Shown: positions 6,832 through 63,796 of the stretch, piece by piece
How positions within the stretch are numbered: position 1 is the first letter of the stretch
How the letters are laid out: each line of letters opens with the position of its first letter
Source of the DNA: Acidobacteriota bacterium
Lineage (GTDB): Bacteria; Acidobacteriota; Terriglobia; Acidiferrales; UBA7541
NCBI GenBank assembly: GCA_003223215.1
Contig: QHYH01000080.1
Span: forward strand, 62,001-126,000
Direction: 5' to 3'
Length of the DNA: 64,000 nt
Made by a program: the position numbers and the translations under genes
The notes under the pieces: generated by a model
What the model saw: only the letters and a program-made list of their open reading frames with translations
Database searches by the model: none
What the model was told of the DNA's origin: nothing

Positions 6832-7012
6832 GAGGGGGCAAGTCTGCCCGGGGTGTGGGGCTTCCACAAACCCTGCCCCCTGCTAGTGACCCTCCGCAAA
6901 GTGAGTGTTCAGTCTTACTGTGTACCGGAAGGCCCGCGGCAGAATCCGGGGATCCCCGTAATTGCATGCGGGGGGTTTCGCTCAGTTGAGCATTTTCGGC
7001 TTTCCTCGAGCG
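6832..7012. repeat. Dispersed intergenic repeat, copy A
   Basis: Shares a colinear series of blocks with 8304-8510: GGGGGCAAG, GTGTGGGG with TTCCACAAA, CCGCAAAGTGA, TACTGTG followed by ACCG, GCAGAATCCGGG/GCAATCCGGG, GGGTTTCG with CTCAGT, and TCGGCTTTC. The two copies differ by many substitutions and small indels, so they are old. Neither carries a conserved protein frame across its whole length. A family of structured repeats or a mini-mobile element are both possible. Confidence 0.55.
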
Positions 7013-7048
7013 GCAAAGTTTCTGAATCTTCCCAAATCTTCCTCGTCA

Positions 7049-7426
7049 CGCCACCGTTGTGGAGACCTTGTTCGGCCCTAGACTTTCAGCGGAATTTGCT
7101 GGCCGTTCAGTAACCATCGACAGCCAGTTCTCCGGGCCGTTCAGCGCGTTGAAATCTGCATTGGACAGTTGCTGACCCGGTAGATTCAAAGCCAGGATTT
7201 TGACCCTCGGGTATTTCTCTCTTAAGCCAGTCCGCCATTTCTTCTCGGATGGCCTCCGCTGCCGCATGACCCACAATGAAGAGGTCATAGTGGTGAATGG
7301 AGCCTAATAGGACTCTCGCCTTCTCGTTGCCCATCACGGTGATTACACCGTATCCGTGTGATCGAAGCGGTTCGGCTGTGTCGTTGCCCAACCTCTCATC
7401 ATAGGCGATATGAAAAATCCGTGTAG
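7049..7426 (-). pseudogene. Frameshifted CheY-like receiver domain remnant
   Basis: Minus-strand frame one reads TRIFHIAYDERLGNDTAE, then LRSHGYGVITVMGN and HHYDLFIVGHAAAEAIREEM; after ADWL the match moves to another frame (LREKYPRVKILALNLPGQ, then DFNALNGPENWLSMVTE). Together this is a degenerate receiver-like domain of the kind common in Acidobacteriota (YDLxIxGHxxP, PxxxILxL). The shift lies near 7226. There is no ATG, GTG or TTG before the first homologous residues within the open frame, so the 5' end is damaged too. Confidence 0.5.
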
Positions 7427-7442
7427 TGGCCCACCACTCTGC

Positions 7443-7595
7443 CTAAGGCACATTCATCTGCGCGACGATCTGGCGCGTCTTTGCATCCGCTGCAAAACAC
7501 TCGTTGCTCGTGCGTTTCGCCAACTCTCGCAGCGTGAGCAGACTAAACTCCAAGTCAGACACAGCGGTAATCCTCCGTGCCGAGCCACTTGGCAT
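7443..7595 (-). CDS. Possible 50-residue small protein
   Basis: ATG at 7595 to TAG at 7443. The product contains ITAVSDLEFSLLTLRELAKR followed by TSNECFAADAKTRQIVAQMN, a compact helical, amphipathic sequence. It lies just upstream of the receiver-domain remnant on the same strand. I recognise no named family; similar short helical ORFs occur in Acidobacteriota, and the start is uncertain because the frame stays open upstream. Confidence 0.3.
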   Translation of the reverse strand: MPSGSARRITAVSDLEFSLLTLRELAKRTSNECFAADAKTRQIVAQMNVP

Positions 7596-7786
7596 GACCT
7601 CGAATATCTCGCATGCCGCTGCATGATGGCTAGCTCGCTCGAAACCTAGATCACGAGACGGAACCCGTTAAGGTCTGGTCTTTGACAGTTCTTCGACTCA
7701 ACTCCGCAAGCTCAAATCCGGCTAACTCCGCTTGGCCGCGAACATCACCTTAAAATGAGGCCCCAGTGAGGTTCTCCCTAACAACG

Positions 7787-8095
7787 CTAGCGCCTATGCG
7801 GCTTCTGCCACTTCTCAACGCGAACCTCAAGTCGGAGACCAACAGCAAATTTGCCTTCCCCTAGGGGCTGACAGTAAACCACCCGTCCCGGTAAATTTAC
7901 TTGTTCCTCGGATGCATCCAAGCGCACGAGCTTACCCGGAGCACAGACCGAATCGGTAATCACCCGTGCGCCCCGAGGACTCACGTTCTCGGTGAATGCC
8001 TCAACTTTTGCGGTCGACGACCCGTCCAGGTGCAAAAGCCCTACGACTTCTGTCTTTGCAATCCGCTGCTCGAATCGGCCAGTCGGCATCCGCAT
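7787..8095 (-). CDS. PilZ-domain protein (c-di-GMP binding, small)
   Basis: 102 residues spanning a single PilZ-type beta-barrel. The two c-di-GMP-binding signatures are visible: RXXXR as RFEQR (residues 7-11) and the D/NXSXXG motif as NVSPRG (about 38-43). VVYCQPLGEGKFAVGLRL near the end is the typical closing strand. Such stand-alone PilZ proteins act as c-di-GMP receptors that alter partner proteins. No operon partner is evident. Binding is inferred from the motifs. Confidence 0.7.
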   Translation of the reverse strand: MRMPTGRFEQRIAKTEVVGLLHLDGSSTAKVEAFTENVSPRGARVITDSVCAPGKLVRLDASEEQVNLPGRVVYCQPLGEGKFAVGLRLEVRVEKWQKPHRR

Positions 8096-8303
8096 CCTTC
8101 GCCCTCCCCGTCATTGCCTTTCTGCGGACGCCCGGGCTAGCCTTGGGCTAGCCTAGCTGGGTTCACAGGAAGGTAAAGTTCCGCCGAATTCTCTCGCCTT
8201 CCACCGCACAACCGACTAAACCGCGCATAGGAATCGCTTGTAAGCAGTTAAGGAATCCAGCGAGCACGCGAATTCTTTTTAAACACTCGTACACTTCTTG
8301 AGG

Positions 8304-8510
8304 TACGGGGGCAAGCCTGGCTGGCGGTGTGGGGGTTTCCACAAAGAACTCGCCCCCCTTGGTGCTCATCCGCAAAGTGAAGTATCAGTGGTACTGTGAA
8401 CCGAAGGGTTAGCGCCGCAATCCGGGAATCACTGTAAATTACCTGCGGGGTTTCGGGGTATCGCTCAGTCGACGCTTTCAGAAGTCACTCTCGGCTTTCT
8501 TTGAACGGGG
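8304..8510. repeat. Dispersed intergenic repeat, copy B
   Basis: Counterpart of the repeat at 6832-7012, in the same orientation and about 1.5 kb away. Conserved blocks include GGGGGCAAG, GGTGTGGGGG with TTCCACAAA, CATCCGCAAAGTGA, GTACTGTGAACCG, GCAATCCGGGAATC, GGGGTTTCGGGG and TCGCTCAGTCG. It lies upstream of nothing on the plus strand and just downstream of the sugar-kinase gene on the minus strand. A 70-residue minus-strand frame (8163-8375) begins inside it but is probably fortuitous. Confidence 0.55.
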
Positions 8511-8622
8511 GGACGTTTCCATCGGGCCAGTAGGCGGGATGGGATGCGTTGCCGGTCATTTTCGGCGATTTGATTCAGGAGTGAGCCAGTCTCTCCAAGG
8601 AGATACCGCGATAGAAGATTGC

Positions 8623-9576
8623 TCACGGGATTCCTCCTTTTCTCTGGCCGGCGGGCGTTTGTAAAAAAGACTCTCGATGATGCTGGTCGCGCAGGGCCTC
8701 GGTACCACCGGCGCGGGTTGTAGAGAGCGCCGCAACGGCGTTGCCATACTCAAGGCACGCCTCCAAATTGGCGCGGAGAATGAATTTATGGAGGAATCCG
8801 GCATTGAAACTGTCGCCCGCGCCAACCGTGTCCACAGGCTGAACCGGCATGGAAGGTACACGGAATTGATCTTTGCCACGCCTGGCCATTGCGCCTTCCG
8901 GGCCGCATTTGATCACCACAATCGGAACTAGCTGCGCTAGCACGTCAAGCGCGCTTTGCACATCCGCTGTGCCGGCGAGCTTGCGTGCCTCTCGCTCATT
9001 GGGCAAGAAGATGTCAACGCTCTTCAGAGCGGACTTAACGTCGTCAGCCCAAAGATCTTCGGGGTCGTCGTTGGTATCGAGTGAAGTAGTGAGTCCTGAC
9101 TTTTTCATTTGCGAAAAAAGATCGGGGATCCTGGGTCGGAGTCCGCGCAGAAGAAAGAAGGAAGAAAGATGAAAGTGAGAGGCGCTGCGGAGATAGTTCA
9201 GATCGAGGTGGGCAAATTGCAAGTCCAGTGTGGTTCCCAAATAGGTGAGAATCTGGCGCTGCTTCGAAAGAGGAAGAATTACGGTGACGCCGGTGGTTTT
9301 GCCTGAAAGAACTTTTACGCCGGAAATATCCACGCCGCTCTCTTGCAGGCGGTCCACGCAGAAGTTGCCTAGAGGATCGCCGCCGATGCAGGAAGTGAAA
9401 CCAACGCGGCTGCCCAGGAGCGAAATGTTGTGGGCAAAGATTGCCGAAGAACTGCCGAGAGTTATCGCAAAAGTTTCGGCCAGGTGTTCGCGTTCGGGTT
9501 CGAGTGTTGCGGGCAGGCCGTACAGAATCAGGTCCGCGTTGAGTTCGCCGACGACGCTAATGTCAAAGCGCTTCAC
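8623..9576 (-). CDS. PfkB-family (ribokinase-like) sugar kinase
   Basis: 317 residues, starting with GTG whose GTGA overlaps the stop of the upstream kinase, so the pair is translationally coupled. The N-terminal PfkB signature (VVGELNADLILYG) and C-terminal signature DTVGAGDSFNAGF (249-261, catalytic base Asp255) are intact. It phosphorylates a sugar hydroxyl with ATP. It is nearer to ribokinase / fructokinase / ketogluconate-type kinases than to phosphofructokinases, so it could make the sugar-6-phosphate that the locus's isomerase uses (inference). It is the last gene of the lacD-kinase-kinase unit. Confidence 0.88.
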   Translation of the reverse strand: MKRFDISVVGELNADLILYGLPATLEPEREHLAETFAITLGSSSAIFAHNISLLGSRVGFTSCIGGDPLGNFCVDRLQESGVDISGVKVLSGKTTGVTVILPLSKQRQILTYLGTTLDLQFAHLDLNYLRSASHFHLSSFFLLRGLRPRIPDLFSQMKKSGLTTSLDTNDDPEDLWADDVKSALKSVDIFLPNEREARKLAGTADVQSALDVLAQLVPIVVIKCGPEGAMARRGKDQFRVPSMPVQPVDTVGAGDSFNAGFLHKFILRANLEACLEYGNAVAALSTTRAGGTEALRDQHHRESFLQTPAGQRKGGIP

Positions 9577-44985: not shown

Positions 44986-45903
44986 TCACTCGGTCACGAG
45001 CAACGAAGCTTGTTCCGTACTCTGGCTCTTCCTCTTGTACAACTCACGGTCTGCTGCTTGTAGGAGGTCTTCAATCGTCTCACCGTCCCGCGGGTAAACA
45101 GCCACTCCGATGCTTGCGGAAAGAGTCGGTTGCTCACTGTCCGTTGCTATCCGCTCGCGGATACGAGAGGCAACAAACGCTGCGGCACTGGCGGTCGTCT
45201 CGGGCAAGATGACAGCAAACTCATCGCGACCATATCGCGCGGCCGTGTCAACCGCCCGGCAAAACAAACGGAGCACTCCGCTAATGCGGCACAGTGCCCG
45301 GCTGCCTACCAGGTGGCCGTAGCGGTCATTGATATTCTTCAGCCCATCCAAGTCCAGCAGCAGAACAGCAAACGGCCGTCGCGTGCGCCTCGATCTTTCC
45401 ATCTCCGCACGGAGGACGTCTAGGATCCGACCATAGTTGCCAAGGCCGGTAAGGGGATCGGTAATGGCCAAGAGTCGTGCCTGCGGTTCCGCTCGTTTAC
45501 GCTTGGTCAGGTCGAAAGCCGAGAATAGCTTGGCCGGCACGCCATCGAAGTCAATCTTTGCTGCAATGATCTCAAGCCAACGCTCCTCGTGATTCTTCGT
45601 TAGAATTCTGACCTCACGCCGCGAAGCGAAGCCAGTCTCCTCTTCGCGCGCGCCCCGCGCTATGACTGCCTCTTGAGCATCAGGCTGGACAAGATCGCAG
45701 AAATCCATTGATACGAGTTCCGCTCGTGTATAACCAGTGATGGCCTCTGCGGCATGATTCACATAATGGAACCGCTTTCCGCAGCTAACGAATACCGGCG
45801 ATGCAAGAGTCTCGACTAAGGTGCGGAAGCTCGCCTCGCGCTTCCGGCGGGGCTTATCTCTCACTGGGACCTTCCTAGCCCGCTTTGTAGCTCTCATGCA
45901 CAT
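44986..45903 (-). CDS. PAS-GGDEF protein (probable diguanylate cyclase, altered active-site motif)
   Basis: 305 residues from the ATG at 45903 (AAGAAGAG upstream). PAS domain at about 24-137 (FVSCGKRFHYVNHAAEAITG, YTRAELVSMDFCDLV) and GGDEF domain at ~144-300 (ITDPLTGLGNYGRILDVLRA, VLLLDLDGLKNINDRYGHLV, SIGVAVYPRDGETIEDLLQA). The signature motif is GRDEF (225-229), an Arg replacing the second Gly, so activity may be altered. No transmembrane helix. It would make c-di-GMP if active. Confidence 0.82.
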   Translation of the reverse strand: MCMRATKRARKVPVRDKPRRKREASFRTLVETLASPVFVSCGKRFHYVNHAAEAITGYTRAELVSMDFCDLVQPDAQEAVIARGAREEETGFASRREVRILTKNHEERWLEIIAAKIDFDGVPAKLFSAFDLTKRKRAEPQARLLAITDPLTGLGNYGRILDVLRAEMERSRRTRRPFAVLLLDLDGLKNINDRYGHLVGSRALCRISGVLRLFCRAVDTAARYGRDEFAVILPETTASAAAFVASRIRERIATDSEQPTLSASIGVAVYPRDGETIEDLLQAADRELYKRKSQSTEQASLLVTE

Positions 45904-45937
45904 CGAAAACTCTTCTTGTAGTGTCCCTTGTCGAAAA

Positions 45938-45966
45938 CCAAGGGGCGGACTTGGCCCGCCCCCCAA
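45938..45966 (-). terminator. Probable terminator after the ABM-like gene
   Basis: GGGGCGG pairs with CCGCCCC with a short loop (ACTTGGC region, 45942-45963); on the minus strand the stem is followed by TTGGTTTTCG. It lies between the ABM-like stop (45986) and the PAS-GGDEF start (45903). Confidence 0.45.
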
Positions 45967-45985
45967 ACAAAGAGACCTATTGGCT

Positions 45986-46300
45986 TCAGGCCGCTGAAGC
46001 AGCGGCGATCTTGTGGAATGTGGAATTGGCAACCTCATAGGTCTCGACCTGAGGGGTTCCGTCAATCACCTTCGCCAGAGCCTTCGCCACTTCGGCGTAA
46101 CTTTCGCGGTTGTAGTTTTCCGCGTTCTCTGCCCGGTCCCACAAGCTGATGCCAAATCCCTTGCCTCCCGGTGCGACAAACGTGATTTCGTCCAGGAATC
46201 CCTTTTGTTTCCGAAGAAGGGGAATGACTTCCCTTTCCAGAGTCTGGGTGAACTCCGGAATGCTGCCCTTCAGATGCATAGTGACTTTGCGTGCAAACAT
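45986..46300 (-). CDS. ABM-like (antibiotic biosynthesis monooxygenase-type) small protein
   Basis: 104 residues from an ATG with AGGAGG five bases upstream. A ferredoxin-like fold is indicated (FARKVTMHLKGSIPEFTQTL, EREVIPLLRKQKGFLDEITF, YAEVAKALAKVIDGTPQVET). The ABM/DUF fold dimerises and may act in oxidation or sensing; no catalytic residues can be named. Divergent from the XRE regulator. Confidence 0.7.
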   Translation of the reverse strand: MFARKVTMHLKGSIPEFTQTLEREVIPLLRKQKGFLDEITFVAPGGKGFGISLWDRAENAENYNRESYAEVAKALAKVIDGTPQVETYEVANSTFHKIAAASAA

Positions 46301-46402
46301 GTCAACCTCCTTGGTTGGCTGACCAAGGGGGATTCAGATAACTTGCTTTGGTATAGACATTCTGAAAGCGCCCTCAGTTCCTTAACCACCGTAGGTTAAT
46401 TA

Positions 46403-50813: not shown

Positions 50814-51716
50814 TTAACGGACGATGCTGGGAATTTGGTCAGGGATGGAAGACTCTACCGATGGCTTGACGCTTTCCTCCACCTCATGGCTCGCAACAAC
50901 GCTCGAAACCTTATCGCCATCGGAATCAAGGAGCGCGCCTCGGGGGAGCGCGGCGACGAGCTTCTGTGTGTAAACATGCTGCGGGGCGCCGAAAATTTGT
51001 GCTGGCGGAGCACATTCGAGAATTTGGCCTGCATGCAAAATTGCGATGCGATGACAAAGCGCCGCAACCGACAGCAAATCATGAGAGATGTAAAGGATTC
51101 CCATCCTAAGCTCACGGCTGAGCTGGGCAAACAAGCGGAGAATTTCCGACTGGGTGATGGTATCCAAGGCGCTGGTGGGCTCATCAGCAATCAACAGCGA
51201 AGGGCGGTGGAGGATGGCCATGGCAATGATGACTCGCTGAGCTTGCCCGACACTAAGTTGCGAGGAATAGCGCCGGAGGAAGGACCTTTCTGCAGGAAGG
51301 CTGACACTCAACAATGTTTCGAGGATCGCCTTGCGAGCCGCGTCGTCCGATCCTTTAACATGCGCGCGCCAAGCCTCCTCTAGTTGCGTGCCAATTCGAA
51401 GAGCGGGGTTCAAGGCGGAAAGCGGACTTTGAAGAACTAACCCAAGTTCTCGCCCGCGCACGGAGCGCATCTCCCGCTCCGAGACCCCCATCAGATTACG
51501 CCCTTGAAACCAGATTTCGCCGCGTTGATTGCCCTTGTGGAGATGCAACAAGCGGAGAATCGCGAGCGCCAGAGTGCTTTTGCCAGAGCCGCTCTGTCCG
51601 ATCAGCCCAAGGATTTCACCCGAGTACATCTCCAGGGCAAGGGTGCGCAGGACGTTCGGTCTGTCCGGATAATCGGCCGAAAGGCACAGCGAAAGCAGCG
51701 AAGTCGTTCGAGTCAC
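50814..51716 (-). CDS. ABC transporter ATP-binding protein (DppD/OppF type)
   Basis: 300 residues with GTG start overlapping the previous stop. Walker A is GLIGQSGSGKSTLAL, the signature is LSVGQAQRVIIAMA (V in place of the usual second G of LSGGQ), Walker B is PSLLIADEPTSALD and the H-loop is YISHDLL. The C-terminal segment has the oligopeptide family tail (EDAPPAQIFGAPQHVYTQKL-like). Only one ATPase gene is found with two permeases, so it may form a homodimer. Part of a four-gene overlapping operon. Confidence 0.88.
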   Translation of the reverse strand: MTRTTSLLSLCLSADYPDRPNVLRTLALEMYSGEILGLIGQSGSGKSTLALAILRLLHLHKGNQRGEIWFQGRNLMGVSEREMRSVRGRELGLVLQSPLSALNPALRIGTQLEEAWRAHVKGSDDAARKAILETLLSVSLPAERSFLRRYSSQLSVGQAQRVIIAMAILHRPSLLIADEPTSALDTITQSEILRLFAQLSRELRMGILYISHDLLSVAALCHRIAILHAGQILECAPPAQIFGAPQHVYTQKLVAALPRGALLDSDGDKVSSVVASHEVEESVKPSVESSIPDQIPSIVR

Positions 51717-53344
51717 TGATCGCCTCCACGCCCCTGATTGGAAAGGTAAAGACTCTCGATATTCCAGAACGTTTGCGGACGCAGCACGACCGGGGAAGTA
51801 TTGGCAAGCGCCGGGGAGATGGCGACAAGCGCGTTTTTGTTCACCAGATAAATAAAGGGCTGCTGGTCCCAGACAATTTTCTGAACCTGATCAAAATAGC
51901 TTTTGCGCTGCTTTTGGTCATTCGTAGAAGCCTGGGCTTGCATGAGGCGGTCAATTTCCGCTTCCCAAGAAGTGGCAGGCGTTTTTTGTTCCGGGTTCCA
52001 TTGATGATTGCTGGATGAGCTGAGCCAGACGCTCATCTGCGCACTGGGATCCAAATCCACATTAACAAGACCAAGCAAGCAAAGCTCATAATCGAAGGTG
52101 CGGGAGATGCGTTCGATCAGGGAAGGAAAATCCAACGTCACAATATTAAGCCGGACTCCAATCTGCTCCAGGTCCTGCTGAATCATTGCGGCCATTTGCT
52201 CGCGGTATTTGTTCCCCGCATTGGTGACGACGGAGAATTCAACCGAGTGTCCATCAGGGTCATTCAAGACGTGCCCATCGAAGCGAAATCCATCCTGCTG
52301 CAAACGGCGCAGTGCGCTTTGCGGATCGTACGGATTAGGCTCGAGGGACTTGTTAAACCAGAAGAGATTTGCGGGCGAAACAGGCCCAACCGCCGGGCGC
52401 GCATGACCGCTAAATACAACGCGACAAAGGTCGCCGCGATTAATCGCCTCAGAAATGGCCAGCCGAAAGCTAGTGGAGCGGAACCATTTCTTTTTGTAAT
52501 TGGGAATGGGCGAAGAGGGGACTTGATTGAACCAAATCTGCTCAGAGTCGAGAGATGGACCAATGTCGCGCACGGCCGCGGGCGCTTCCTTGGCAAGGCT
52601 CTCAAAGTAGGAAGCGTCGAGGCTGTTGATGAGCTGAATTTCGCCACGCTTGAAACGGAGCAGCTCAAGATCTCGATTCTGTTGGACGTCTAATCGGATC
52701 GAATCGAGGTAGGGAAGCTTCCGACCCTGGGCGTCCTTCTTCCAATAATAGGAATTCCGCCTTAGCAACACGTAAGACCCGGGCTTGTATTCGGCAATGG
52801 CAAACGGTCCCAGAACCGCTGCCTCCTTCTTTGGAGAATGGGAGGAAACAATGGCCACCTGGTCAAAAAGCCGCTCGAGTCCGGCAACAGCAGATGGAAA
52901 TTCAATGACGACATTGCGCGGGTCTGGGGCGGTCACACGGACCTGGCCTTGAGAGGAGCGGAAGGAGTCGCCGGTCGGGGAGTGCAGCTCCGGATCCATT
53001 AATTTCTGCATGGTGAAAGCAACATCCTCGGCGGTAAACGGAGTTCCGTCCGAGAACGACAATCCCTCGCGCACTCGGAAGCTTATCTTCTTTCCGCCCT
53101 CGGAAACCTTCCAAGACACACCCAATTCCGGTTCGAGCGCCTGGGTCTTCCGGTTGACCCGAATTAGGACGCCGCCAGTCAGATAGCGAATGGTTTCAGA
53201 CGCTTCGTCATCGACAAGCATGGGATCGAAGGTCTTTGGCTCCGAGCGCAAGACGAAGCGCAGCTCGGCGCCAGATTGCGCCGTAGCTGGGAGAGCAGCC
53301 AAAAGGAAACTTGCAGCTAGTAATGCAAGTCTATGGTTCCTCAT
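51713..53344 (-). CDS. Peptide/nickel-type ABC substrate-binding protein (SBP_bac_5)
   Basis: 543 residues from an ATG at 53344 that overlaps the upstream permease's stop. A signal peptide (RLALLAASFLLAALPATAQS) is followed by the SBP type-5 pattern: ELRFVLRSEPKTFDPMLVDD, YLTGGVLIRVNRKTQALEPE, LGVSWKVSEGGKKISFRVRE, GLSFSDGTPFTAEDVAFTMQ and SFRLAISEAINRGDLCRVVF. Probably binds peptides or similar molecules in the periplasm. No lipobox is visible. Confidence 0.87.
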   Translation of the reverse strand: MRNHRLALLAASFLLAALPATAQSGAELRFVLRSEPKTFDPMLVDDEASETIRYLTGGVLIRVNRKTQALEPELGVSWKVSEGGKKISFRVREGLSFSDGTPFTAEDVAFTMQKLMDPELHSPTGDSFRSSQGQVRVTAPDPRNVVIEFPSAVAGLERLFDQVAIVSSHSPKKEAAVLGPFAIAEYKPGSYVLLRRNSYYWKKDAQGRKLPYLDSIRLDVQQNRDLELLRFKRGEIQLINSLDASYFESLAKEAPAAVRDIGPSLDSEQIWFNQVPSSPIPNYKKKWFRSTSFRLAISEAINRGDLCRVVFSGHARPAVGPVSPANLFWFNKSLEPNPYDPQSALRRLQQDGFRFDGHVLNDPDGHSVEFSVVTNAGNKYREQMAAMIQQDLEQIGVRLNIVTLDFPSLIERISRTFDYELCLLGLVNVDLDPSAQMSVWLSSSSNHQWNPEQKTPATSWEAEIDRLMQAQASTNDQKQRKSYFDQVQKIVWDQQPFIYLVNKNALVAISPALANTSPVVLRPQTFWNIESLYLSNQGRGGDQ

Positions 53345-54147
53345 GGCGCAAAGTCCTCCTGACGTAGGACAAGCTGAAAACAGCTCACGACGACAAGAAG
53401 CAAAAGCAGCGGAGCCAGCCGCGCGGGATTGGCCTGGACCGCGCTCCAATTCTCCAGCCCTCGAAGCAAGCCACCCCAGGAAGGCAAAGGTTCCGATACG
53501 CCGAGCCCCAGAATTCCCAAATTTGCTTCCGTAAGGATGAAAACCGGAATGGAGATCAAAAACTGCGCAAACAGTGCGGGGCGGAGATTGGGCAACACTT
53601 GCTGCAACAGAACGCGCCGGGAGGAGCAACCGCAAGCCTTGGCCTGCAGGACGAAGTCGGAGTCGCGCAAGCCGCGCGCGCCGGCACAAATCACACGCGC
53701 GGATGCAGCCCAGCCGAAGAACCCAAGAAGGGCGAACGTAATGAGCAGCGACGCAGCGGGAGAGAGGTTGAGAGGTAGTACGGCGCGCGCTGCCAGGAGG
53801 AGAAAGAGCCAAGGCAGGGACATAGCCAGGTCTGTACCACCCAGCGCGATACGTTCGAGCCATCCGCCCGCGTACCCCGCTACCCCTCCGACCAGGGCAG
53901 CAATGATCGTCGCCAATAACGATGCTGCGGGGGCCAAAAGAAGCGATATGCGGCTGCCGTAAAGCAGTCTGGAGAAAAGGTCGCGGCCTAACTCGTCTGT
54001 CCCTAGGAGGTGTATTCGAGAGGGCATCGCGTTAGGCGAGTCCCGAAATTGCTTGGCATAGGGAACAGGGACAAGAACCCCGGCGAAAAGTGCTGCAATG
54101 AAGACAGCGATCAAAAACGCAGCCGCGGTTCGGCGAAGAAGCTTCAT
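53341..54147 (-). CDS. ABC transporter permease (DppC/OppC type)
   Basis: 268 residues from an ATG at 54147, overlapping the stop of the other permease. Membrane helices include AAAFLIAVFIAALFAGVLVP and SRISLLLAPAASLLATIIAA; the EAA-type loop is ARGLRDSDFVLQAKACG, and LLGTDELGRDLFSRLLYG is the classic DppC N-terminal motif. Partner of the DppB-type permease. Confidence 0.87.
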   Translation of the reverse strand: MKLLRRTAAAFLIAVFIAALFAGVLVPVPYAKQFRDSPNAMPSRIHLLGTDELGRDLFSRLLYGSRISLLLAPAASLLATIIAALVGGVAGYAGGWLERIALGGTDLAMSLPWLFLLLAARAVLPLNLSPAASLLITFALLGFFGWAASARVICAGARGLRDSDFVLQAKACGCSSRRVLLQQVLPNLRPALFAQFLISIPVFILTEANLGILGLGVSEPLPSWGGLLRGLENWSAVQANPARLAPLLLLLVVVSCFQLVLRQEDFAP

Positions 54148-55016
54148 ACCGGGCGCGTCTCGAAGGCCTTGGTCGCAAGGTCCGCAGCAGAATTGGCGGT
54201 GAGTGTCACCAGGGTCACAAACAAAGTCATATTCACGAGCACTGGCAAATCGCGGCTTAGAGCAGCCTGCCAAGCTAGCTGGCCGATCCCTGGAGAGTCG
54301 CAGATCACTTCTATGGGAATTGCCGCCCCCAGCGCGATGCTTACGGTAACACCGCTAAGAGCGAGGATTTGGGGGGCAGCAACGGGGAAAATGTGCCAAA
54401 GAAGAATCCGAAGCGTGGAGAGACCCTTAGCGCTTGCCGTCAGGACATGAGGCAGCGCGTACGTCTGCACGAGAATGTTTCGAGCGTAACGAAAAACACG
54501 CGGAAAGACGACCACACAAATGGCCAGGGCCACCGGTCCGCGGAAATAGAGAAAGAGAATGGCTACGACCGCCGTAGGGAGACACAAGAATACGCCACTG
54601 GTCGAGGACGCGAAGAAGTCAAAACTCCATCCGCGAAGCCTAACAACAGGCAAGGCGAGCAGAAGGCCGAGCATCCACCCTCCCGCGAGGCCCAGCGCAA
54701 CGGTCCGTAGAGTGACTGGCAAGCGCTCGGCGAAAAGTTGAGTTACGGGGCGACCAAAAGAATGCGAAACGCCCAGATGTCCTCGAGCGGCGCCAGCGAG
54801 GTAGCTTGCGTAAAACTGCAACACATTGCGTTCTTCAGAATGCGAGCGCCGCAGCGCCTGAATACTGTCTTCGTGCAGGCGGGTGTCAAGCTCGCGCTCA
54901 TCTACTCCAAATCCCGGCGCGAACCGGACCAAGGTTGCCCCAAGGATTCCCCCGAGAAGAGCCGTGAGCAAGAGCGTGCCGATACGTCGGAAGAGAACTC
55001 CGGTCCAGGTCCACAT
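54144..55016 (-). CDS. ABC transporter permease (DppB/OppB type)
   Basis: 290 residues; starts at 55016 or five codons earlier. Membrane spans from LLLTALLGGILGATLVRFAP; YASYLAGAARGHLGVSHSFG and RPVTQLFAERLPVTLRTVAL are DppB-family features, and the EAA loop is VLTASAKGLSTLRIL. First gene of the transporter operon, only ~26 bases downstream of the HD-GYP gene, so it may be co-transcribed with it. Confidence 0.85.
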   Translation of the reverse strand: MWTWTGVLFRRIGTLLLTALLGGILGATLVRFAPGFGVDERELDTRLHEDSIQALRRSHSEERNVLQFYASYLAGAARGHLGVSHSFGRPVTQLFAERLPVTLRTVALGLAGGWMLGLLLALPVVRLRGWSFDFFASSTSGVFLCLPTAVVAILFLYFRGPVALAICVVVFPRVFRYARNILVQTYALPHVLTASAKGLSTLRILLWHIFPVAAPQILALSGVTVSIALGAAIPIEVICDSPGIGQLAWQAALSRDLPVLVNMTLFVTLVTLTANSAADLATKAFETRPV

Positions 55017-55042
55017 TGTGCAGCAATCCAAACGCCGTGGAG

Positions 55043-57490
55043 TTAGTGTATCGTACTGGCTGGACTTACCTCGGTGGCCACGGCTTGGCTTGTATACAAC
55101 TGGTTATGGTGCCGTCGCTTTTGCCCGAACATCCGCCGGTCGGCCGTCGAGAGAAGCTGCTCGGCATCGGAACCTTCTTCCGGGTAAAAGGCGTGCCCCA
55201 CACTCACGGAGAGCACGTCGGTACCGGAAATCTCCCGGCCCGCCTCGGCGGCTAACCGTTGCAAGTGGCGTATTTTGTCCTCAAGCGCTTCGGGCTTTAA
55301 ACCAGAGAGAATTAGAACGAATTCATCCCCACCCATCCTGGCCACGTAGTCGTATTCGCGGCAGGCTTGCTTGAGTTTTTCGGCAAAAGAGGCCAGCAGT
55401 CGATTCCCTTGCAAGTGGCCGAACCGATCATTGATTTGTTTGAAGCCATCCAGGTCACAAACCAGTACCGCGACAGACATCTGATGACGGCGGCAGCGCG
55501 CAAGTTCGCTATCGAGATGAATAAACAGAGACCGCGCGTTTGGTAGACTGGTTAAATAGTCCGTGGTCGCCGTGCGCTCGACCTGTCTGTACTTTAAAGC
55601 ATTTTCAAACGAGAGTGCGATTTTCGAACTGATCGCGAGCAGGATGCGGAGGTGATCTCGAGTAAAGGCATCTGCTTCGGTCCGATAGAGCGCCAGAACG
55701 CCAACGACGCCATCCACGCCTTCTAGGGGAACTGCCAAGACAGACCGCAAGGAATGGCCGTTCGTAGGATCATTCAAGCGTTCTGACTCAGTTGCCAGAT
55801 TCCCGTTCACGATCGGCTTTCGGTTTGCCGCCACCCATCCAGATACGCCCTCCCCAATAGGAATCCGCAGCGAAGAAAGTAGGCGGAAATTGTCGCCGCT
55901 GACATGTTCGGGAACGAGCTGAATGTTTCGGACAGAGTAGATTGCGATCGAGTCGTAGGGAACCAAGTGCTTCAAGCGAGCTGCAAGCATCGAAAGTGTT
56001 TCGTCTAAGCTAAGGGAGTTACCAAGTTCCCGTGTGATCTCGAACAGTGTTTGCACTTCATGGCGTGCTGCCGCAATAGAAGCGAGGAAATCGATCGAAC
56101 TGCTACCTGGATTGATCGGCACAATATCACTTTTTTCAAATCCCGCGCCTGGAGGTGCTGCGCTTTCGACTTTAATGTTTTTGGTCAGGCGGGCCTGTTC
56201 GCTCCCTTTGATGTTTGCCAGAAGCTCGAATTCCCGGTAGCGGCTCTGGAGCACCTCCACTACTTTCGGGTCAAAGCTCTTTCCAGCTTCCCCAATGACC
56301 TGCTCCATGGCTTTTTCCAGTGAGAGCGCAGGACGATACTGGCGATCTGAGGCAAGTCCATCCAGGCAGTCAACTACTGCGAGGATTCGCGCTCCTGTCG
56401 GAATTTCGTCCCCGCGCAGGCCGCAAGGATAACCATTTCCATCCCACCGCTCATGGTGGGCACGCACAATCGGAACTACCGGATATGGGAATTGGACGCG
56501 CTCGAGAATTTCCGCACCGACGAGGGGATGGACTTTCATGCGCTCGAATTCTTCGGGAGTAAGCCGCCCGGGCTTGGAGATGATGTGCTCAGGGACGGCC
56601 AGCTTGCCGATGTCGTGAAGAACCGCAGCCGCACGAAGCGCTTCGAGCTCGGACGGCGACAGGCCCATTTCCTTTCCAATGGACATGGCATAGACCTGCA
56701 CGCGCCGCAGGTGCTCATGCGTGCCGTGATCCTTGGCCTCGATTGCGAGCGCCAGTGCTTCAATCGTCCGCAGATGGAGAGCAGCCATGCCCTCGGCGTG
56801 ATTGCGTTCGGCCTCCAACCGGGCCAAATAAAGGCGGTAAGAACGGAAGATCAGATACACAACCGGAAGAATCAGCAGAGAAGGCTGCCAGCTAGCTTTT
56901 TTGTCAATTAGTTCTACGATTCCGGCAATCGCAGCTCCCAGCAAATAGTAGGGAAACGACCAAAAGTAACACTCGGACCAAACCTTCCGCAGGGGCTTTT
57001 GCTCGGTAAGCGAGATCACGCACGCCACCGGAACGGTGTTCAGAACGAAGAATGTTGCTCCCGAGGCGACCAGAATTAGCAGCTGGTTGTCCGCAACGAA
57101 CTGGCTCACTCTCGAATGGAATAGGTAATATGTGCCCGCCGTAGCACTCGCCATGCTCGCAACGTTGAAAGCAACCTGGACCGGCTTGGGCCAGGTCTTA
57201 GGTTTCCAGTAACACTGAACTGCCGTTCCCAAAACGCCCATCAAAAGGGTTTGAGCAAGAGTTAGCTCACGGACGCCGACCAGAATGAACACAAAGATGA
57301 CTGACATGGTTCCATGCACCCCAGGGAGACTCACTTTCATCCCGGAGGCGAGAAGAGCAAGCGCCAGATAGCAGACGTAGCGTGAGGGCTCGGTCCATTG
57401 ACCATGAAAGAGCCCCAGAGACAAGGACAAAAGCCCCGCGAGAAGAGTGATCGCTATATAGACCCGGGCTTTCATGGAGGTCGGAAGCAT
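55043..57490 (-). CDS. Membrane HD-GYP, GAF and GGDEF signalling protein
   Basis: 815 residues from the ATG at 57490. About six N-terminal membrane helices (to ~225), then an HD-GYP phosphodiesterase domain with VLHDIGKLAVPEH (HD at 292-293) and HHERWDGNGYPCGLRGDEIP (345-364), a GAF domain (~480-630; VPYDSIAIYSVRNIQLVPEH) and a C-terminal GGDEF domain with intact GGDEF (720-724) and DLDGFKQINDRFGHLQGN. One protein thus has sites for making and breaking c-di-GMP; the GYP triad is represented by NGYP. Divergent from the sigma-54 activator. Confidence 0.9.
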   Translation of the reverse strand: MLPTSMKARVYIAITLLAGLLSLSLGLFHGQWTEPSRYVCYLALALLASGMKVSLPGVHGTMSVIFVFILVGVRELTLAQTLLMGVLGTAVQCYWKPKTWPKPVQVAFNVASMASATAGTYYLFHSRVSQFVADNQLLILVASGATFFVLNTVPVACVISLTEQKPLRKVWSECYFWSFPYYLLGAAIAGIVELIDKKASWQPSLLILPVVYLIFRSYRLYLARLEAERNHAEGMAALHLRTIEALALAIEAKDHGTHEHLRRVQVYAMSIGKEMGLSPSELEALRAAAVLHDIGKLAVPEHIISKPGRLTPEEFERMKVHPLVGAEILERVQFPYPVVPIVRAHHERWDGNGYPCGLRGDEIPTGARILAVVDCLDGLASDRQYRPALSLEKAMEQVIGEAGKSFDPKVVEVLQSRYREFELLANIKGSEQARLTKNIKVESAAPPGAGFEKSDIVPINPGSSSIDFLASIAAARHEVQTLFEITRELGNSLSLDETLSMLAARLKHLVPYDSIAIYSVRNIQLVPEHVSGDNFRLLSSLRIPIGEGVSGWVAANRKPIVNGNLATESERLNDPTNGHSLRSVLAVPLEGVDGVVGVLALYRTEADAFTRDHLRILLAISSKIALSFENALKYRQVERTATTDYLTSLPNARSLFIHLDSELARCRRHQMSVAVLVCDLDGFKQINDRFGHLQGNRLLASFAEKLKQACREYDYVARMGGDEFVLILSGLKPEALEDKIRHLQRLAAEAGREISGTDVLSVSVGHAFYPEEGSDAEQLLSTADRRMFGQKRRHHNQLYTSQAVATEVSPASTIH

Positions 57491-57875
57491 TAATCGTGTA
57501 CCGATCCTTGGAACTTGCAACCTGACTGCCACGAACACGTCGCACGCGAGTCCCCCCTAACCTGCTGTGAAATCATAACTTCGAGCTGTGTCCCCCATTG
57601 GCGAGTTGTGTCGCTTGACCGGATCGGTGACAACTTGTCGCTCAACGCGCGGGCGCAGTTCCCAAGTATCTCGGCCCTTTCCGTTGGCACTCTCTCTCTG
57701 ACACTTAGCTCCGTAGGTCATTCATAACAAGAGGCTTAACTCACGCATCGAAGAGTACTTTCGGGCCATATTTTCAGTTCGGAAGTACTATGGGCAATTT
57801 GTCCGTCGGCGAATCATCATTTGAAAAGGTTTGATAATCGCAGGTCCTGTCGCCGGATTATTGGGAGCAACAAAT
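57491..57875. other. Divergent promoter region between the HD-GYP and sigma-54 activator genes
   Basis: About 385 bases with no supportable gene; upstream regulatory sequence for both divergent transcripts. No unambiguous -24/-12 (TGGCAC-N5-TTGC) promoter was found by eye. Confidence 0.4.
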
Positions 57876-58838
57876 ATGAGTTGTAGCCCTGGATCGATTC
57901 TCGGGTTGCCCGCCGTCATCCCTAGCGCAGCCATGCGACGGGTGATGGAGATGGTCAAGCGTGTGGCCCAAACGGATGCCTCCGTCCTCGTCACGGGCGA
58001 AAGCGGGGTCGGCAAAGAACTTGTCGCTCGGGCCTTGCACGAACAATCCCTTCGATGTAATTCGCCCTGGGTGGACCTCAATTGCGGGGCACTTCCAGAA
58101 CATCTCGTTGAAAGTGAGTTATTCGGTTTTGAGAAGGGCGCCTTCAGCGGTGCCACCCAGACCAAGCAGGGTCTCCTCGAACTAGCCCACCCGGGCACGC
58201 TTTTCCTAGATGAGATTGGCGACCTTGACTCCCGTTTGCAAGTGAAGCTGCTGCGAGTGTTGGATGGCGCTCCATATTACCGCCTCGGTGGGTTAAAAAA
58301 GATCTCCCCGAACGTTCGCATCGTGGCCGCCACAAATCGGGACCTGGAGAAGGGCATTGCAGGCGGCAAGTTTCGAAGCGACCTCTTCCATCGGTTGAGC
58401 CAGGTTCACATTGCAGTACCACCTCTGCGCGAGCGGCCGGAAGACATTCCTGTGCTAGCCGAGTTCTTCCTGCGCGAGCAGAACCAGAATAATGTCGGTA
58501 TCGCGCCGGCGGCACTAGAGGAGCTTCGTAACTTGCCGTGGCCAGGCAACGTACGGGAACTCCGCAATGTCGTGATTCGCGCTTCAATCATGAGATCTGG
58601 GAATGAAATTCAGGTCGAGGACTTACCGCTGGGAAAGCAGAAGACTTCGCCGCAATCGGCCCCCGTCGCGGCAAGCCTCGAAGAGATGGAACGTCAGATG
58701 ATCTTCCGCGCGTTAGACCAGACTTCCGGTCACCACGAACGAGCCGCAAAGGTGCTCGGAATTTCTCGGAGAACATTGACCCGTAAGCTGAAAAAGTATG
58801 AGGCCGCGAATGCACTTGAAGCAGTCGCTGCTGGCTGA
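57876..58838 (+). CDS. Sigma-54-dependent transcriptional activator without a receiver domain
   Basis: 320 residues from the ATG at 57876 (GGAGC upstream); a TTG 15 codons earlier is possible. An AAA+ domain has Walker A GESGVGKE (41-48), ESELFGFEKGAFSGA with the sigma-54-contact loop as GAFSGA (88-93) rather than the usual GAFTGA, Walker B GTLFLDEIG and PWPGNVRELRN. A Fis-type HTH follows (ERAAKVLGISRRTLTRKLKK). It has only a short N-terminus, so control may come from another protein or expression level. Confidence 0.9.
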   Translation: MSCSPGSILGLPAVIPSAAMRRVMEMVKRVAQTDASVLVTGESGVGKELVARALHEQSLRCNSPWVDLNCGALPEHLVESELFGFEKGAFSGATQTKQGLLELAHPGTLFLDEIGDLDSRLQVKLLRVLDGAPYYRLGGLKKISPNVRIVAATNRDLEKGIAGGKFRSDLFHRLSQVHIAVPPLRERPEDIPVLAEFFLREQNQNNVGIAPAALEELRNLPWPGNVRELRNVVIRASIMRSGNEIQVEDLPLGKQKTSPQSAPVAASLEEMERQMIFRALDQTSGHHERAAKVLGISRRTLTRKLKKYEAANALEAVAAG

Positions 58839-59118
58839 ATGCTCTCCGGCACATCCGGACGAACGTCGACGGAATCCACGGCGGGCAGCCCACGGCGTAA
58901 TGACCCTCAATATCCTCAAGTCAGATTTGCGTTCTGCCCCTATTCATGCTTTTCTCCTTGACCTGAGCGCCTCGGGGTTTCGCGCGTCCCACACCGCCCA
59001 GGAGCTCTGTTCCGGTCAAGAGGTTGCTTTCTGCCATGGCACGGGGGAAGGCATGGCCAGGGTCGTGTGGACTCGGATCGTTGGCCAACGCGTAGAAAGC
59101 GGCTTCTTGATTTGCTGA
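58810..59118 (+). CDS. Small PilZ-domain protein
   Basis: 102 residues; the start overlaps the activator's end by 29 bases, in another frame. RRNPRRAAHG gives the RxxxR motif and LDLSASGFRASHT the DxSxxG motif, so c-di-GMP binding is plausible. A basic N-terminus precedes. Coupled to the sigma-54 activator. Confidence 0.75.
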   Translation: MHLKQSLLAECSPAHPDERRRNPRRAAHGVMTLNILKSDLRSAPIHAFLLDLSASGFRASHTAQELCSGQEVAFCHGTGEGMARVVWTRIVGQRVESGFLIC

Positions 59119-59666
59119 CCTCAAGGGGTTCTCCACGCCGATTCTCTCCCGCCCTCCCTTCCGACGTCGCCCTAGCCTTCTCCTACGGATCCCTACGACC
59201 AAAGTAACTGCAACGTTTATTTGATTTTGGGTTCCGGTGCCGTTTGGGGTTCTGCAGCAGTTTGGGGAACCAGCACCCAACAATCGGTGGGAGAGTACCA
59301 ACGTAGCGATTTCGGGTGAAAACTAAAATGCAATCTACACACAGACCCGCACCGGGGGTCCGAGACACCTGGTCTCCGAGTCCCTCACCGAGTGACAAAT
59401 TGTCTTCTCCACTCCGCGGATCGGACAGCCCTAACTGTCTCAATCACAAGGAATTGCCGTTCGACAGGGTTGGCATCGCACATGCACTTCCCAAACACCG
59501 AGCGGACAGCAGGAAGGCAACTAAACCTATGAATGGGTTGGACGATAAAGCAAAACTGACGGCCCCAACCTTGGGGCGTATGGCTGCTTACGTATTAGGT
59601 TACGATGCAAACGGTAATTCCGAAATCTACGTTTCGATCAAGTTCGCACAATCTGGGAGTTCATCC
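59119..59666. other. Upstream region of the decayed subtilase; no separate gene
   Basis: About 550 bases. A plus-strand frame stays open from 59316 into the subtilase but its sequence is low-complexity and without homology, so the start at 59667 is favoured. No RNA gene or terminator was recognised. Confidence 0.4.
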
Positions 59667-61059
59667 ATGAGACGGTTCGAGCGAGAAGAGGACCTCATCC
59701 ATCCTCAAGTGTTCAACGCCGCTACGTGGGGCGCTCGGATGTTGCTGGCGATTGCAATTTGCCTGCTTGCGGTCGGCGTCTCCCTTGCTGACGGAAAAAA
59801 ACACAAGTTGTCCAACGACCTTGAAGCTTTCAAAGACGGCTCCAATGGCCCAACCGTTGACGTCATCATTCAATTCAACCAGGTGCCCACTGATGTGCAT
59901 CATCAGAAGGTACAGAACAAGGGCGGAGTGCTGAAGACGAAACTGGACGCCATCATGGGAGCTCATTATTCCGTACCGGTTGCGTCCCTCTCCTCTCTGG
60001 CGGGTGATCCCGATGTTGCTTACATCTCCCCCAATCGTCCGCTCAGCGGTACTTCGACTCTCGACTACGGCGCAGAAACAGGTCAATGCACCCGTCGCGT
60101 GGCAGCGGTGGGGTTTGGATGGCACGGGCATCGGAGTAGCGGTCATTGATAGCGGCGTCACCGCCGTTGGTGATCTCTATTGGTGGATTCCGTCGAATCA
60201 AACTTATGGCTCGCGCGTTGTCTATAGCCAGAACTTTGTTCCTGGCACAACGGATAGCTCCGACCAATATGGCCACGGAACACATGTGGCTGGGATCATT
60301 GCCGGTGCGGGCTGGTTTTCCACCGGTTCCAACTTCACTCACACATTCAAAGGGATTGCCCCGAATGCAAACATCATCAACCTGCGCGTTTTGGACCAAA
60401 ACGGTGCTGGTACCGACAGCAGTGTGATTGCGGCGATCCAAACTGCCATCAACTTGAAATCTACTTACAACATCCGTGTAATCAGCCTTTCGCTCGGGCG
60501 CCAAGTCTACGAAAGCTATCAGCTGGATCCACTCTGCCAGGCAGTTGAGGCAGCTTGGAATGCAGGCATAGTAGTGTTGGCCGCGGCTGGGAACCAGGGG
60601 CGCAACAACACCGCGGGAACAGAAGGCTACGGCACCATCGCCGCTCCAGGGAATGATCCGTAGGTCATCACCGTGGGCGCCATGAAGACGGCAGACACTC
60701 CGACCCGCATCGACGACACTATTGCAAGTTACAGTTCGAAAGGACCGACGGCGTACGACTATGTGGTGAAACCCGACATCGTTGCGCCCGGCAATCAAAT
60801 CATCTCCGCCCTGGCGCCGAATGCACCCCTACTGAGTACTCCCACCGATGTTTATCTGAGCGAGTACTCCACCTCGACTACTACCAACACGACCTCGGGC
60901 GGCAATACCAAAAATAACAAGATCTCGCCGTCTTATATGCGGCTGAGCGGCACAAGTATGGCCACACCCGTGGTAAGCGGCGCTGCTGCCCTGCTCATCC
61001 AGCAAAATCCGAACCTTACGCCGGATCAAGTCAAGGCCCGTTTGATGACACTTGTCTAA
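59667..61059 (+). pseudogene. Secreted S8 subtilisin-like serine protease, doubly broken
   Basis: Start ATG at 59667 (GGGAG upstream), signal peptide ARMLLAIAICLLAVGVSLAD, an I9-type propeptide (TVDVIIQFNQVPTDVHHQKV), then the catalytic domain. A frameshift near 60080 separates TSTLDYGAETG from QVNAPVAWQRWGLDGTGIGV; a TAG at 60661-60663 interrupts GNDP-VITVGAMK. Catalytic residues can still be seen: Asp in VAVIDSGV, His in GHGTHVAG, Ser in LSGTSMATPVVSG. The end is abrupt after VKARLMTLV, where a tail-to-tail junction with a YncE-like gene lies. Confidence 0.8.
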
Positions 61060-61800
61060 ATCGAAGACAGTCATCAGTTCGTTTCCCTCACAGGATAGGA
61101 AAGCTCGATGATGCTGGGGATCGAGAGCCATCCCGTGATTTCCCTTGCAGCGCCCAACCGGAAAGCGCCCCACAACTTCATCGGCTACCGGATCGATGAC
61201 TGCAAAAATGTTCTGATCCTGCAAATTCACGTACACCTTACGCGCTACGGGATCGTACTGCGGCATCCCGGTCTCGCTGTCAAAATGCAAGGTCTTAACG
61301 ATTTCGTCTTTGACTACGTCCACAACGGCCTCAGTTTTCCCGCGCTCGTCCGAGACGTATAGCTTGTGGAACGGCGCTGCGTACGCGCTGCCATCCGGTT
61401 TGGCTTCCGTTTTCAGTTTCTTGACCACCTTCATCTGTTTCAGGTCCACGACGCCAATCGTGTTGTCGTATGCGTTGGAAGAGTAGAATTTCCTGAGTCC
61501 CGGCACATACTCCACACCCTCCGCACCAGGAGTATCCGTGACCGTTGCGACGACCTTGTTAGTCTTAACATCAATCACATAAGTTTGTTTCGCGGCAAGA
61601 TGAGCAGATAGCAAGTAGTGATCGTCAGGATCCACAGTCAGGTAGTCGAATCGTTTTCCTCCCGGGCCTGGCAGATCGAACTCTGCTATTTTCTTAAGCG
61701 TAGGGCCGCTCGATTGAGGAGCGCCCTTAGGCGCAAACATCAGAACGAATGTTAGAAGCAGGAGCAGCGCACTGCTTTGGGCTAAGCGTTTTTTAATCAT
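61056..61800 (-). pseudogene. YncE-like secreted beta-propeller, C-terminally truncated
   Basis: Signal peptide (LAQSSALLLLLTFVLMFAPK) followed by YVTN-type repeats: DYLTVDPDDHYLLSAHLAAK, TYVIDVKTNKVVATVTDTPG, IGVVDLKQMKVVKKL, KTEAVVDVVKDEIVKTL. Family homology ends at ELMTVFDLD near 61058; the frame stays open to 60829 but that part is the antisense of the subtilase. About 90-100 C-terminal residues typical of the family are missing. Confidence 0.7.
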
Positions 61801-61809
61801 TTCCGCTTC

Positions 61810-62322
61810 CTACTTGAGAGCGATGTCGCTCAGCGCTGCCTTGATTCCAGCCGCGACCGAGGCGGTATTGCCGGCAGCCCAGAAGTGCATGAAAAAGAGT
61901 CGAGGCTGCTCCGTAAGCATATGACTATGCAGAGCCGTAATGGAAATGTGATGCTCCTCCAGCGCTGAGATAACGGGATTCACTTCCTCGGCCGTGAGCA
62001 CAAAATCGCCTGTCGTAGCAACTTTGCCCGCGCCCGTTTCTTGGAAATTGATAGACTCCGCAACGCCCTGGGGCGATGCGAGTGTCATGCCGTTTTCTGT
62101 TATTTCTTGGGAACGCGCCAAGCCAAAAGAAAGAACTCCACCTCTGAGTGTGCCTTGCCGCCCGATCGTGTCATTCGCAATTTTGACCCATTGGGGTGGA
62201 GTAGTTGGCTCAGGTGCCGGCGGCGCGGGCTTTTCAAGAGGAGTCTTTGAAGTAGCAAGAGCGGCGCGCAAGGAGCCAGCGATCTGAGCGGCGGCACCGT
62301 GGCACAGGTAATGCATGTACAT
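61810..62322 (-). CDS. DUF1259 protein, 5'-truncated
   Basis: The open frame begins with YMHYLCHGAAAQIAGSLRAA, which is the end of the first DUF1259 repeat, and continues with a full second repeat (SQEITENGMTLASPQGVAES, EEHHISITALHSHMLTEQPR, LFFMHFWAAGNTASVAAGIK). Normal proteins carry two repeats and a signal peptide, absent here, so the 5' half is lost. Function unknown. It lies nine bases from the start of the truncated YncE-like gene. Confidence 0.65.
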   Translation of the reverse strand: MYMHYLCHGAAAQIAGSLRAALATSKTPLEKPAPPAPEPTTPPQWVKIANDTIGRQGTLRGGVLSFGLARSQEITENGMTLASPQGVAESINFQETGAGKVATTGDFVLTAEEVNPVISALEEHHISITALHSHMLTEQPRLFFMHFWAAGNTASVAAGIKAALSDIALK

Positions 62323-62671
62323 TACGTGTGGCCCGCCGCGATTGCTACGTACTTTGTGATCCCCGATTTGTTTCGGGACTCTGCCATGGCTTCAATGCAG
62401 TGTGCGGTTCCATTCTACGACGTTCCGGCCTTCGGATCGCTGTAGTTGCGGCTTCGCGTCGTATCTTGGCAGTTCTATTACTCACTGACCTAGCGGTCGG
62501 TGGGCCTTACAATCTGTTGACAAATTTCAGATGCCACGGTGACAACCTTCTCGTACAATTCTGGCTATCTCAAACCGGACAAAGCTCGAAACCCGAGCAT
62601 CAGCCCGTGGATTCCCGCACGCGCTGGAGCCCGAATTTGACACCAAACGTTATTTGGCAGGAGGGGTATAC
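62323..62671. other. Intergenic / decayed stretch before the TIGR03118-type gene
   Basis: About 350 bases. The first part may include the lost 5' end of the DUF1259 gene; only ~13 residues (VRSNRGGPHV) extend its homology upstream without a start. Nothing else was recognised. Confidence 0.35.
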
Positions 62672-63796
62672 ATGAAGCGTGCCATTAAGTTCCTGAGGTC
62701 ATCTCTGATTCTTGGGCTCGCGGTGCTATTGCTTCCCGTTCTCGCATTTGCGCAACATTACAAACAAACGAACCTCGTTTCGGATTTGGCCTCGATTTCT
62801 ACGCCAAATCCTCCGGATCCCAGTCTGAAAAACCCCTGGGGACTGACTCGCTCCCCGGGCGGCAGCCCTTGGTGGGTTTCCAACAATAATTCCGGCACGT
62901 CCACTCTCTACAACGGCGCGGGCGCAGCAATTCCGATTAATGGTACTGGCAACGTCACCGTTCCGCCTCCTAATGGCTCGCCGGCGGGAACCCAGTCGAC
63001 TCCAACAGGTGTCGTTTTTAATGGCAGCCCGACGGATTTTCTCGTTGCCCCGGGCAAATCCGCCCACTTCATCTTTGTTACGGAAGATGGAACGATCTCC
63101 GGCTGGAATAGCGGGCAGAATGCCGTCCTCGTCGTCGACAACTCGGGTAACGGGTCCCCGAATGGCGCCGTCTACAAAGGCGCGACCTCGGGCGAAATCA
63201 ACGGCAACAAATTTCTTTACGTCACGAATTTTCGCAACGCGCGCGTCGAAGTCTACGACACAAATTTCAAGCGTGTCTTTCTCGGTGATGATGCTTTCGA
63301 AGCCGAGGGAGTCCCTGACGGCTTCGCTCCCTTCAACATTCAGAACATCGGCGGCACGCTCTTTGTAACATACGCCAAGCAAGACGCGGCCCGGCACGAT
63401 GACGTCGCCGGTGATGGGCTCGGTCTCGTTGAGATCTTCACGCCGGCTGGGAGACACATCGGCAATCTTCAGCATGGCTCGTGGTTCAATTCACCGTGGG
63501 GAGTTGTCTGGACCACACGTGATTTCGGCGAGTTCAGCAACGCCATTCTCGTTGGCAACTTTGGGAGTGGCAAGATTGCCGCTTTCAATGGTTTCACCTA
63601 CAAATTCATGGGCTTCGTAAAGAACCCAGACGACTCCATCATGATCATCGACGGCCTGTGGTCGCTCACCTTCGGCAACGACGGGACCGCTGGACCAGCC
63701 AACACGCTGTTCTTCAGCGCCGGCATTAACGGGGAACAGGATGGTCTGTTCGGCACGATCACCCCTGTCGACGGGCTGGACGGCGACGAGGAATAA
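62672..63796 (+). CDS. TIGR03118-type secreted beta-propeller protein
   Basis: 374 residues from the ATG at 62672 (GGAGGGG upstream; an ATG 18 bases earlier is less likely). Signal peptide FLRSSLILGLAVLLLPVLAF is followed by the family's motifs: NLVSDLASISTPNPPDPSLK, NPWGLTRSPGGSPWWVSNNN, SGTSTLYNG, LYVTNFRNARVEVYDTNFKR, PFNIQNIGGTLFVTYAKQD and FSAGINGEQDGLFGTI. The family is widespread in Acidobacteriota and Verrucomicrobia; function unknown. No PEP-CTERM tail is evident here. Confidence 0.85.
   Translation: MKRAIKFLRSSLILGLAVLLLPVLAFAQHYKQTNLVSDLASISTPNPPDPSLKNPWGLTRSPGGSPWWVSNNNSGTSTLYNGAGAAIPINGTGNVTVPPPNGSPAGTQSTPTGVVFNGSPTDFLVAPGKSAHFIFVTEDGTISGWNSGQNAVLVVDNSGNGSPNGAVYKGATSGEINGNKFLYVTNFRNARVEVYDTNFKRVFLGDDAFEAEGVPDGFAPFNIQNIGGTLFVTYAKQDAARHDDVAGDGLGLVEIFTPAGRHIGNLQHGSWFNSPWGVVWTTRDFGEFSNAILVGNFGSGKIAAFNGFTYKFMGFVKNPDDSIMIIDGLWSLTFGNDGTAGPANTLFFSAGINGEQDGLFGTITPVDGLDGDEE

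Follow-up and report, generated by a model that had tools for sequence, protein, structure and literature searches.

At one place in an acidobacterial chromosome a subtilase gene and a YncE-like gene meet tail to tail, each of them cut short, and we asked how the two ends came together and whether the frame that crosses them could be a gene. The window, meaning the whole 64,000-nucleotide stretch that was analysed, comprises bases 62001-126000 of a contig (C80) of 179,860 bases in an 8.8 Mb genome of 279 contigs with an estimated completeness of 97.65%. The locus is probably a case of gene decay by non-homologous joining in a degraded zone of the chromosome. A subtilase copy of a multi-copy locus beside a sigma-54 activator would have lost its function, its remnant would have become attached, in the absence of homology, to part of an unrelated YncE-DUF1259 operon, and further pieces of other loci would follow until an RND-efflux operon begins near 66.9 kb (Table 1). 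The joining itself is presumably recent. All edges were taken from where BLAST matches to relatives, at about 65-97% identity, stop, and they are uncertain by a few bases either way.

Table 1. Features around the joint and in the zone to its right, in window coordinates (numbers above 64000 lie past the window end)
Feature	Position	Strand	Description
Left flank	55043..59114		HD/GGDEF gene 55043-57538 (-); sigma-54 activator 57831-58838 (+); region to 59114
First-subtilase loss site	59115..59228		59114 pairs with L028:2950 and 59229 with L028:4922; ~1.9 kb less in window
Subtilase (Peptidase_S8) pseudogene	59229..61048	+	frame break ~60079, in-frame stop ~60662, in-frame loss ~60920, C-terminal tail absent
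3' extension of YncE frame	60829..61050	-	~72 codons antisense to subtilase; no longer than chance allows
Joint	61049..61050		two bases (CA) with neither subtilase nor YncE homology
3'-truncated YncE-like beta-propeller gene	61051..61800	-	~250 codons kept of ~345 in C3 copy
5'-truncated DUF1259 (PF07485) gene	61810..62332	-	one domain match kept vs two in C3 copy; abrupt homology end at 62332
Unmatched stretch	62333..62508		~176 bp without listed DNA-level match in genus
Second piece	62509..64224 (to 64000 inside window)	+	intact TIGR03118 gene 62672-63796, then 3' end of convergent gene cut at 64224
Piece	64320-64907 vs one relative, 64377-64765 vs second relative		edges differ between relatives
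Piece	64939-65497		cut Ysc84 gene
Piece	65691-66094		possibly whole small gene
Piece	66102-66170 (L083 10102-10170)		~2.1 kb past window end; 69 bases, 96-97% to three G043 contigs and one G018 contig
Pieces	66173-66561 and 66606-66807		matched stretches before RND operon
RND operon (ACR_tran, OEP, HlyD)	from 66899		one ~6.4 kb match to G041 and G017 (L045:2899-9352)

A decayed subtilase and a private joint

The left flank is collinear with a contig of a relative (G024:C85) in which two subtilase genes lie downstream, and the match to that contig is unbroken over window positions 50860-61048 except for the first of the two genes. Most of this first subtilase is absent at 59114/59229; bases 59175-59267 match the 3' end of the first subtilase gene at two further loci (L029 and L017). 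In another relative (G011:C489) the counterpart of a PAS-GGDEF gene at 44986-46312 sits just beyond the subtilase cluster; in the window this gene is found on the opposite side of the cluster, some 13 kb away.

The remaining subtilase matches Peptidase_S8 (PF00082) in two pieces of 84.9 and 75.1 bits (cut-off 21.8), and the frame break, the stop and the end at 61048 keep the whole domain out of any one open frame. The one-base frame break and the stop were absent from all six of the other subtilase copies that we aligned. The gene carries 34 private synonymous changes and 8 nonsynonymous ones, and it is changed at 14 of 330 otherwise invariant residues, compared with 4-9 of 320-325 in five other copies. 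This excess suggests that the decay need not be very recent, and there is some sign of a relaxation of constraint after a long constrained history. Several copies of the locus exist in this genome, a tandem group on contig C130 and a further, partly broken one on C171. The C171 locus (L018) is a second sigma-54 and subtilase locus, and its sigma-54 gene and first subtilase are in pieces as well. In GTDB we found 18 subtilase loci, all from metagenome-assembled genomes, 17 of them labelled "Acidobacteria bacterium" (13 of these gp2) and one Bryobacterales. A co-directional membrane gene, with a weak MASE9 match of 20.9 bits that falls below the Pfam cut-off of 24.3, lies directly 3' of the subtilase in 10 of the 18; some of the other eight end near a contig edge and some have no membrane gene close by.

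To place the joint, we searched 36 genomes of the genus, the genome itself included, with a 601-bp query placed over it and scored at most 16 candidates per genome. The query was matched in 17 of the 36, and the matches listed comprise the window itself and 39 others. On the subtilase side there were 24 of these 39, of which 21 end at 61048, two are short internal matches and one stops near 60922; the 15 on the YncE side start at 61051-61053 (10) or later (5). None of the 39 crosses the joint. When the raw sequences were written out alongside it, 13 subtilase copies and 8 YncE copies each continued in their own kind where the window switches. No exact match to a 27-mer over the joint was present in the GTDB contigs searched, a set that may omit records of this genome. 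The earlier note had described a tail-to-tail junction of two truncated genes and had proposed a comparison with relatives; the junction was borne out in geometry and coordinates, and the same fused structure was found neither among the listed matches in the genus nor, by the 27-mer, in the GTDB contigs. The abrupt subtilase end that it placed after VKARLMTLV is real, but the last residues, LV, are not subtilase sequence.

No clear microhomology was seen at 61048/61051 in the sequences compared beside the joint. Repeats were absent from the joints, the longest direct-repeat family listed in 59000-67000 being a 71%-identical 31-mer away from them, and no insertion sequence was recognised over the zone, judged from open reading frames, repeats and matches.

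A private joint could also have been made by the assembly or the library, if the contig joined unrelated molecules in a metagenome-derived genome. The genome is likely to be of metagenome origin (279 contigs, with all 18 GTDB subtilase loci from such genomes), the joint is seen in no other genome among the listed genus matches or in the 27-mer search, and several joints are clustered. Nevertheless, we consider an artefact unlikely. In a comparison with 11 loci of the same genome, exact matches of more than 16 bases were absent from the surroundings of the joint (up to 12 bases away), and those spanning it reached at most 10 bases, against a background with a median of 10 and a maximum of 15. 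Moreover, the subtilase is also broken, independently of the joint, within its homologous part, and about eight sites with gene-interior edges would all have to be wrong within 6 kb. At the other joints the spanning exact matches were 0-13 bases (same background maximum, 11 own-genome loci); a 30-base own-genome match lies beside the 65497 edge, where contig C104 is the genome's own relative of the piece.

The YncE-like fragment and the frame across the joint

On the other side of the joint, bases 61051-62332 form one ungapped match of 1282 bp, at 79% identity, to contig C3 of the same genome, where the gene order is membrane-fusion protein (HlyD_D23), AcrB-type permease, DUF1259, YncE-like and MFS. 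In the window the YncE-like gene lacks its last quarter at 61051 and the DUF1259 gene lacks its N-terminal part at 62332; past the latter point DUF1259 continues in the C3 copy (297 aa) and in a copy of a relative, G004 (a 320-aa open reading frame). A co-directional MFS-type gene follows the YncE-like gene in the four RND-type loci that we read (L019, L021, L024 and L026), the family assignment coming from a family test on L019. The piece reaches 42.7 bits with the YVTN repeat TIGR02276 (cut-off 27.85) and misses the YncE equivalog NF052280 (41.6 bits, cut-off 400), as does the intact C3 copy (52.7); its match to the Pfam family YNCE (PF21783) is also below the cut-off. Because both of these cut-offs are missed, we call the gene YncE-like and no more. 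Its dN/dS is 0.045-0.064 against three relatives, which give 0.047, 0.093 and 0.204 among themselves; these values are rough, since pS is 0.66-0.72 and synonymous sites are thus near saturation. Together with the 8 and 34 private changes of the subtilase, the low ratio suggests that much of the divergence of both genes arose under constraint. Recent copying of the pieces within the genome was considered and rejected, the own-genome matches being just 79% (YncE/DUF1259, C3), 88% (C104) and 92% (C23).

The earlier note had proposed that one deletion or rearrangement removed both 3' ends at once. A single deletion would require two intact neighbouring genes that once stood tail to tail, and the tail-to-tail geometry and the single clean joint are what it would leave behind. 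But with cuts on either side of the YncE/DUF1259 piece, at 61051 and at 62332, no fewer than two events must have taken place. In addition, the subtilase and the YncE-like gene sit in separate loci with different 3' neighbours in relatives, and among the listed matches to the joint query no contig carried both sides. A tblastn scan (1e-8) of 18 GTDB and 8 further subtilase loci, with at most 10 kb of flank per locus and with six of the 8 apparently, by their length, on the same contigs as GTDB loci, gave no YncE, DUF1259 or TIGR03118 match. Intact neighbours in the same order were thus found neither among the listed joint-query matches nor in the 26 loci of the scan. The part of the proposal that stands is a rearrangement by which two truncated genes were joined; the single deletion is unsupported, given the second cut and the different 3' neighbours, and we regard it as very improbable.

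The YncE frame does run on through antisense subtilase sequence, as had been noticed. The minus-strand open reading frame at 60829-61800 encodes 323 aa, of which the 250 codons from 61800 to 61051 align to intact YncE-like genes and the remainder is the extension listed in Table 1. When codons were shuffled, the frame stayed open for at least 72 codons in 2065 of 5000 runs. The corresponding frame, read antisense in 11 other copies of the subtilase, has lengths of 34-77 open codons and in one of them exceeds the 72 of the window. The chance of an open run of 74 codons is 0.066 when only base composition is modelled. Selection for the antisense extension was rejected on the shuffles and on the frame lengths in the other copies. 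It is scarcely credible that the 323-aa frame is a new gene, expressed as a propeller with a new tail: it is open from an ATG, its leader resembles a signal peptide by eye, its YncE part has a low dN/dS and the base-composition value is small, but about a quarter of the propeller gene is lost, shuffled codons and one other subtilase copy give frames as long, and the joint was found in no relative among the listed genus matches. Nothing at the joint appears to work as a fusion gene. By itself the joint is one between pseudogenes, and neither a YncE variant nor a short subtilase should be annotated there.

Pieces of other loci up to the RND operon

The YncE/DUF1259 fragment is the first of eight matched pieces that precede the RND operon at about 66.9 kb, beyond the window. 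Among the 18 edges of the pieces, ten fall inside an open reading frame of a relative (61048, 61051, 62332, 64224, 64907, 65497, 66102, 66170, 66173 and 66807), including both edges of the 69-bp piece. The other eight (62509, 64320, 64939, 65691, 66094, 66561, 66606 and 66899) lie at gene ends, between genes or where there is no clear gene, and these may reflect ordinary divergence; the edge at 62509, to the left of the TIGR03118 gene, is intergenic. This gene is intact inside the zone and may still be used. Between matched pieces there are 2 bases at 61049, 7 at 66095 and 2 at 66171, and elsewhere 31-194 unmatched bases. The joint resembles ordinary gene decay in kind, and what looks slightly unusual is how many pieces have sharp joints inside genes. 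A description of such a zone in an acidobacterium was not found in the titles and abstract openings that literature searches listed, which is no proof of absence.

The piece at 64320-64907 (L083 8320-8907) is 93-95% identical to two relatives, G024 and G017, with flanks at about 83-86%, and was perhaps recently exchanged.

That the pieces at 61051-62332 (YncE) and 62509-64224 (TIGR03118) were once neighbours was set aside, though not disproved. One relative contig (G023:C99) has counterparts of the two in matching orientation at a distance of about 14 kb, and another (G013:C160) also carries both. Against it, the G023 copy has an extra gene between YncE and its DUF1259-like neighbour and sits in a different operon, and in G013 the relative orientation of the two counterparts differs.

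Coverage by open reading frames is 0.27 at 64001-68000, the lowest of 26 bins over 104 kb, followed by 0.36 at 4001-8000. The latter stretch likewise matches relatives in separate blocks only, so that low-coding zones are not unique to the surroundings of the joint. The region 1500-9500, low-coding and matched to relatives in separate blocks, is perhaps another zone of pieces. At 1500-1712 it holds a dispersed repeat of about 213 bp with at least 6 further copies in the genome at 93-96% and many of lower identity in relatives.

Possible end joining and comparison with known systems

How joints without shared sequence were made may be hinted at by the repair genes of the same genome. Bacterial pseudogenes can arise by deletion and illegitimate recombination, and in short-patch double illegitimate recombination foreign or distant segments are placed without homology. 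Contig C151 encodes Ku (PF02735, 170.2 bits, cut-off 25) and, within 5 kb of it, a 942-aa frame whose LigD polymerase-domain match of 213.7 bits is one bit under the cut-off of 214.7. End joining after breaks or deletions fits the joints seen here and would be the way in which they were made; the link of Ku and LigD to these particular joints is circumstantial. Conventional NHEJ is reported to be enriched in Acidobacteria (P = 0.05) and to be associated with large genomes (PMC7719229). At 8.8 Mb, the present genome compares with 3.3-8.1 Mb in the other 35, partly incomplete, genomes of the genus.

A stronger form of this idea seems to us decidedly doubtful, given that eight of the 18 edges lie at gene ends or in no clear gene. 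In it, Ku/LigD would have strung captured scraps of DNA, some as short as 69 bp, end to end into a single chain that extends from 61049 to about 66.9 kb. If true, bacteria would have an equivalent of filler-DNA repair, here in a lineage whose genome is enlarged. Should the run of scraps prove real and end-joined, zones of this type would let one read how DNA enters and leaves large soil-bacterial genomes without homology, and they could be counted in acidobacterial genomes that have Ku and in those that lack it.

For the locus as we read it, that is, as gene decay by non-homologous joining, three known systems offer a comparison. Like bacterial pseudogenes made by deletion and illegitimate recombination, it shows truncated genes, a frame break, a stop and abrupt non-homologous joints; it differs in crowding several cut pieces from different loci into about 6 kb, with no insertion sequence recognised. 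It shares with short-patch double illegitimate recombination the foreign or distant segments set in without homology, whereas the pieces here measure from 69 bp to 1.7 kb and stand one after another. Finally, it resembles Ku/LigD end joining in its joints without long homology, in the 2, 7 and 2 extra bases at three of them and in a genome that encodes Ku and a LigD-like gene, but here the connection to the present joints is drawn circumstantially, from the presence of the genes.
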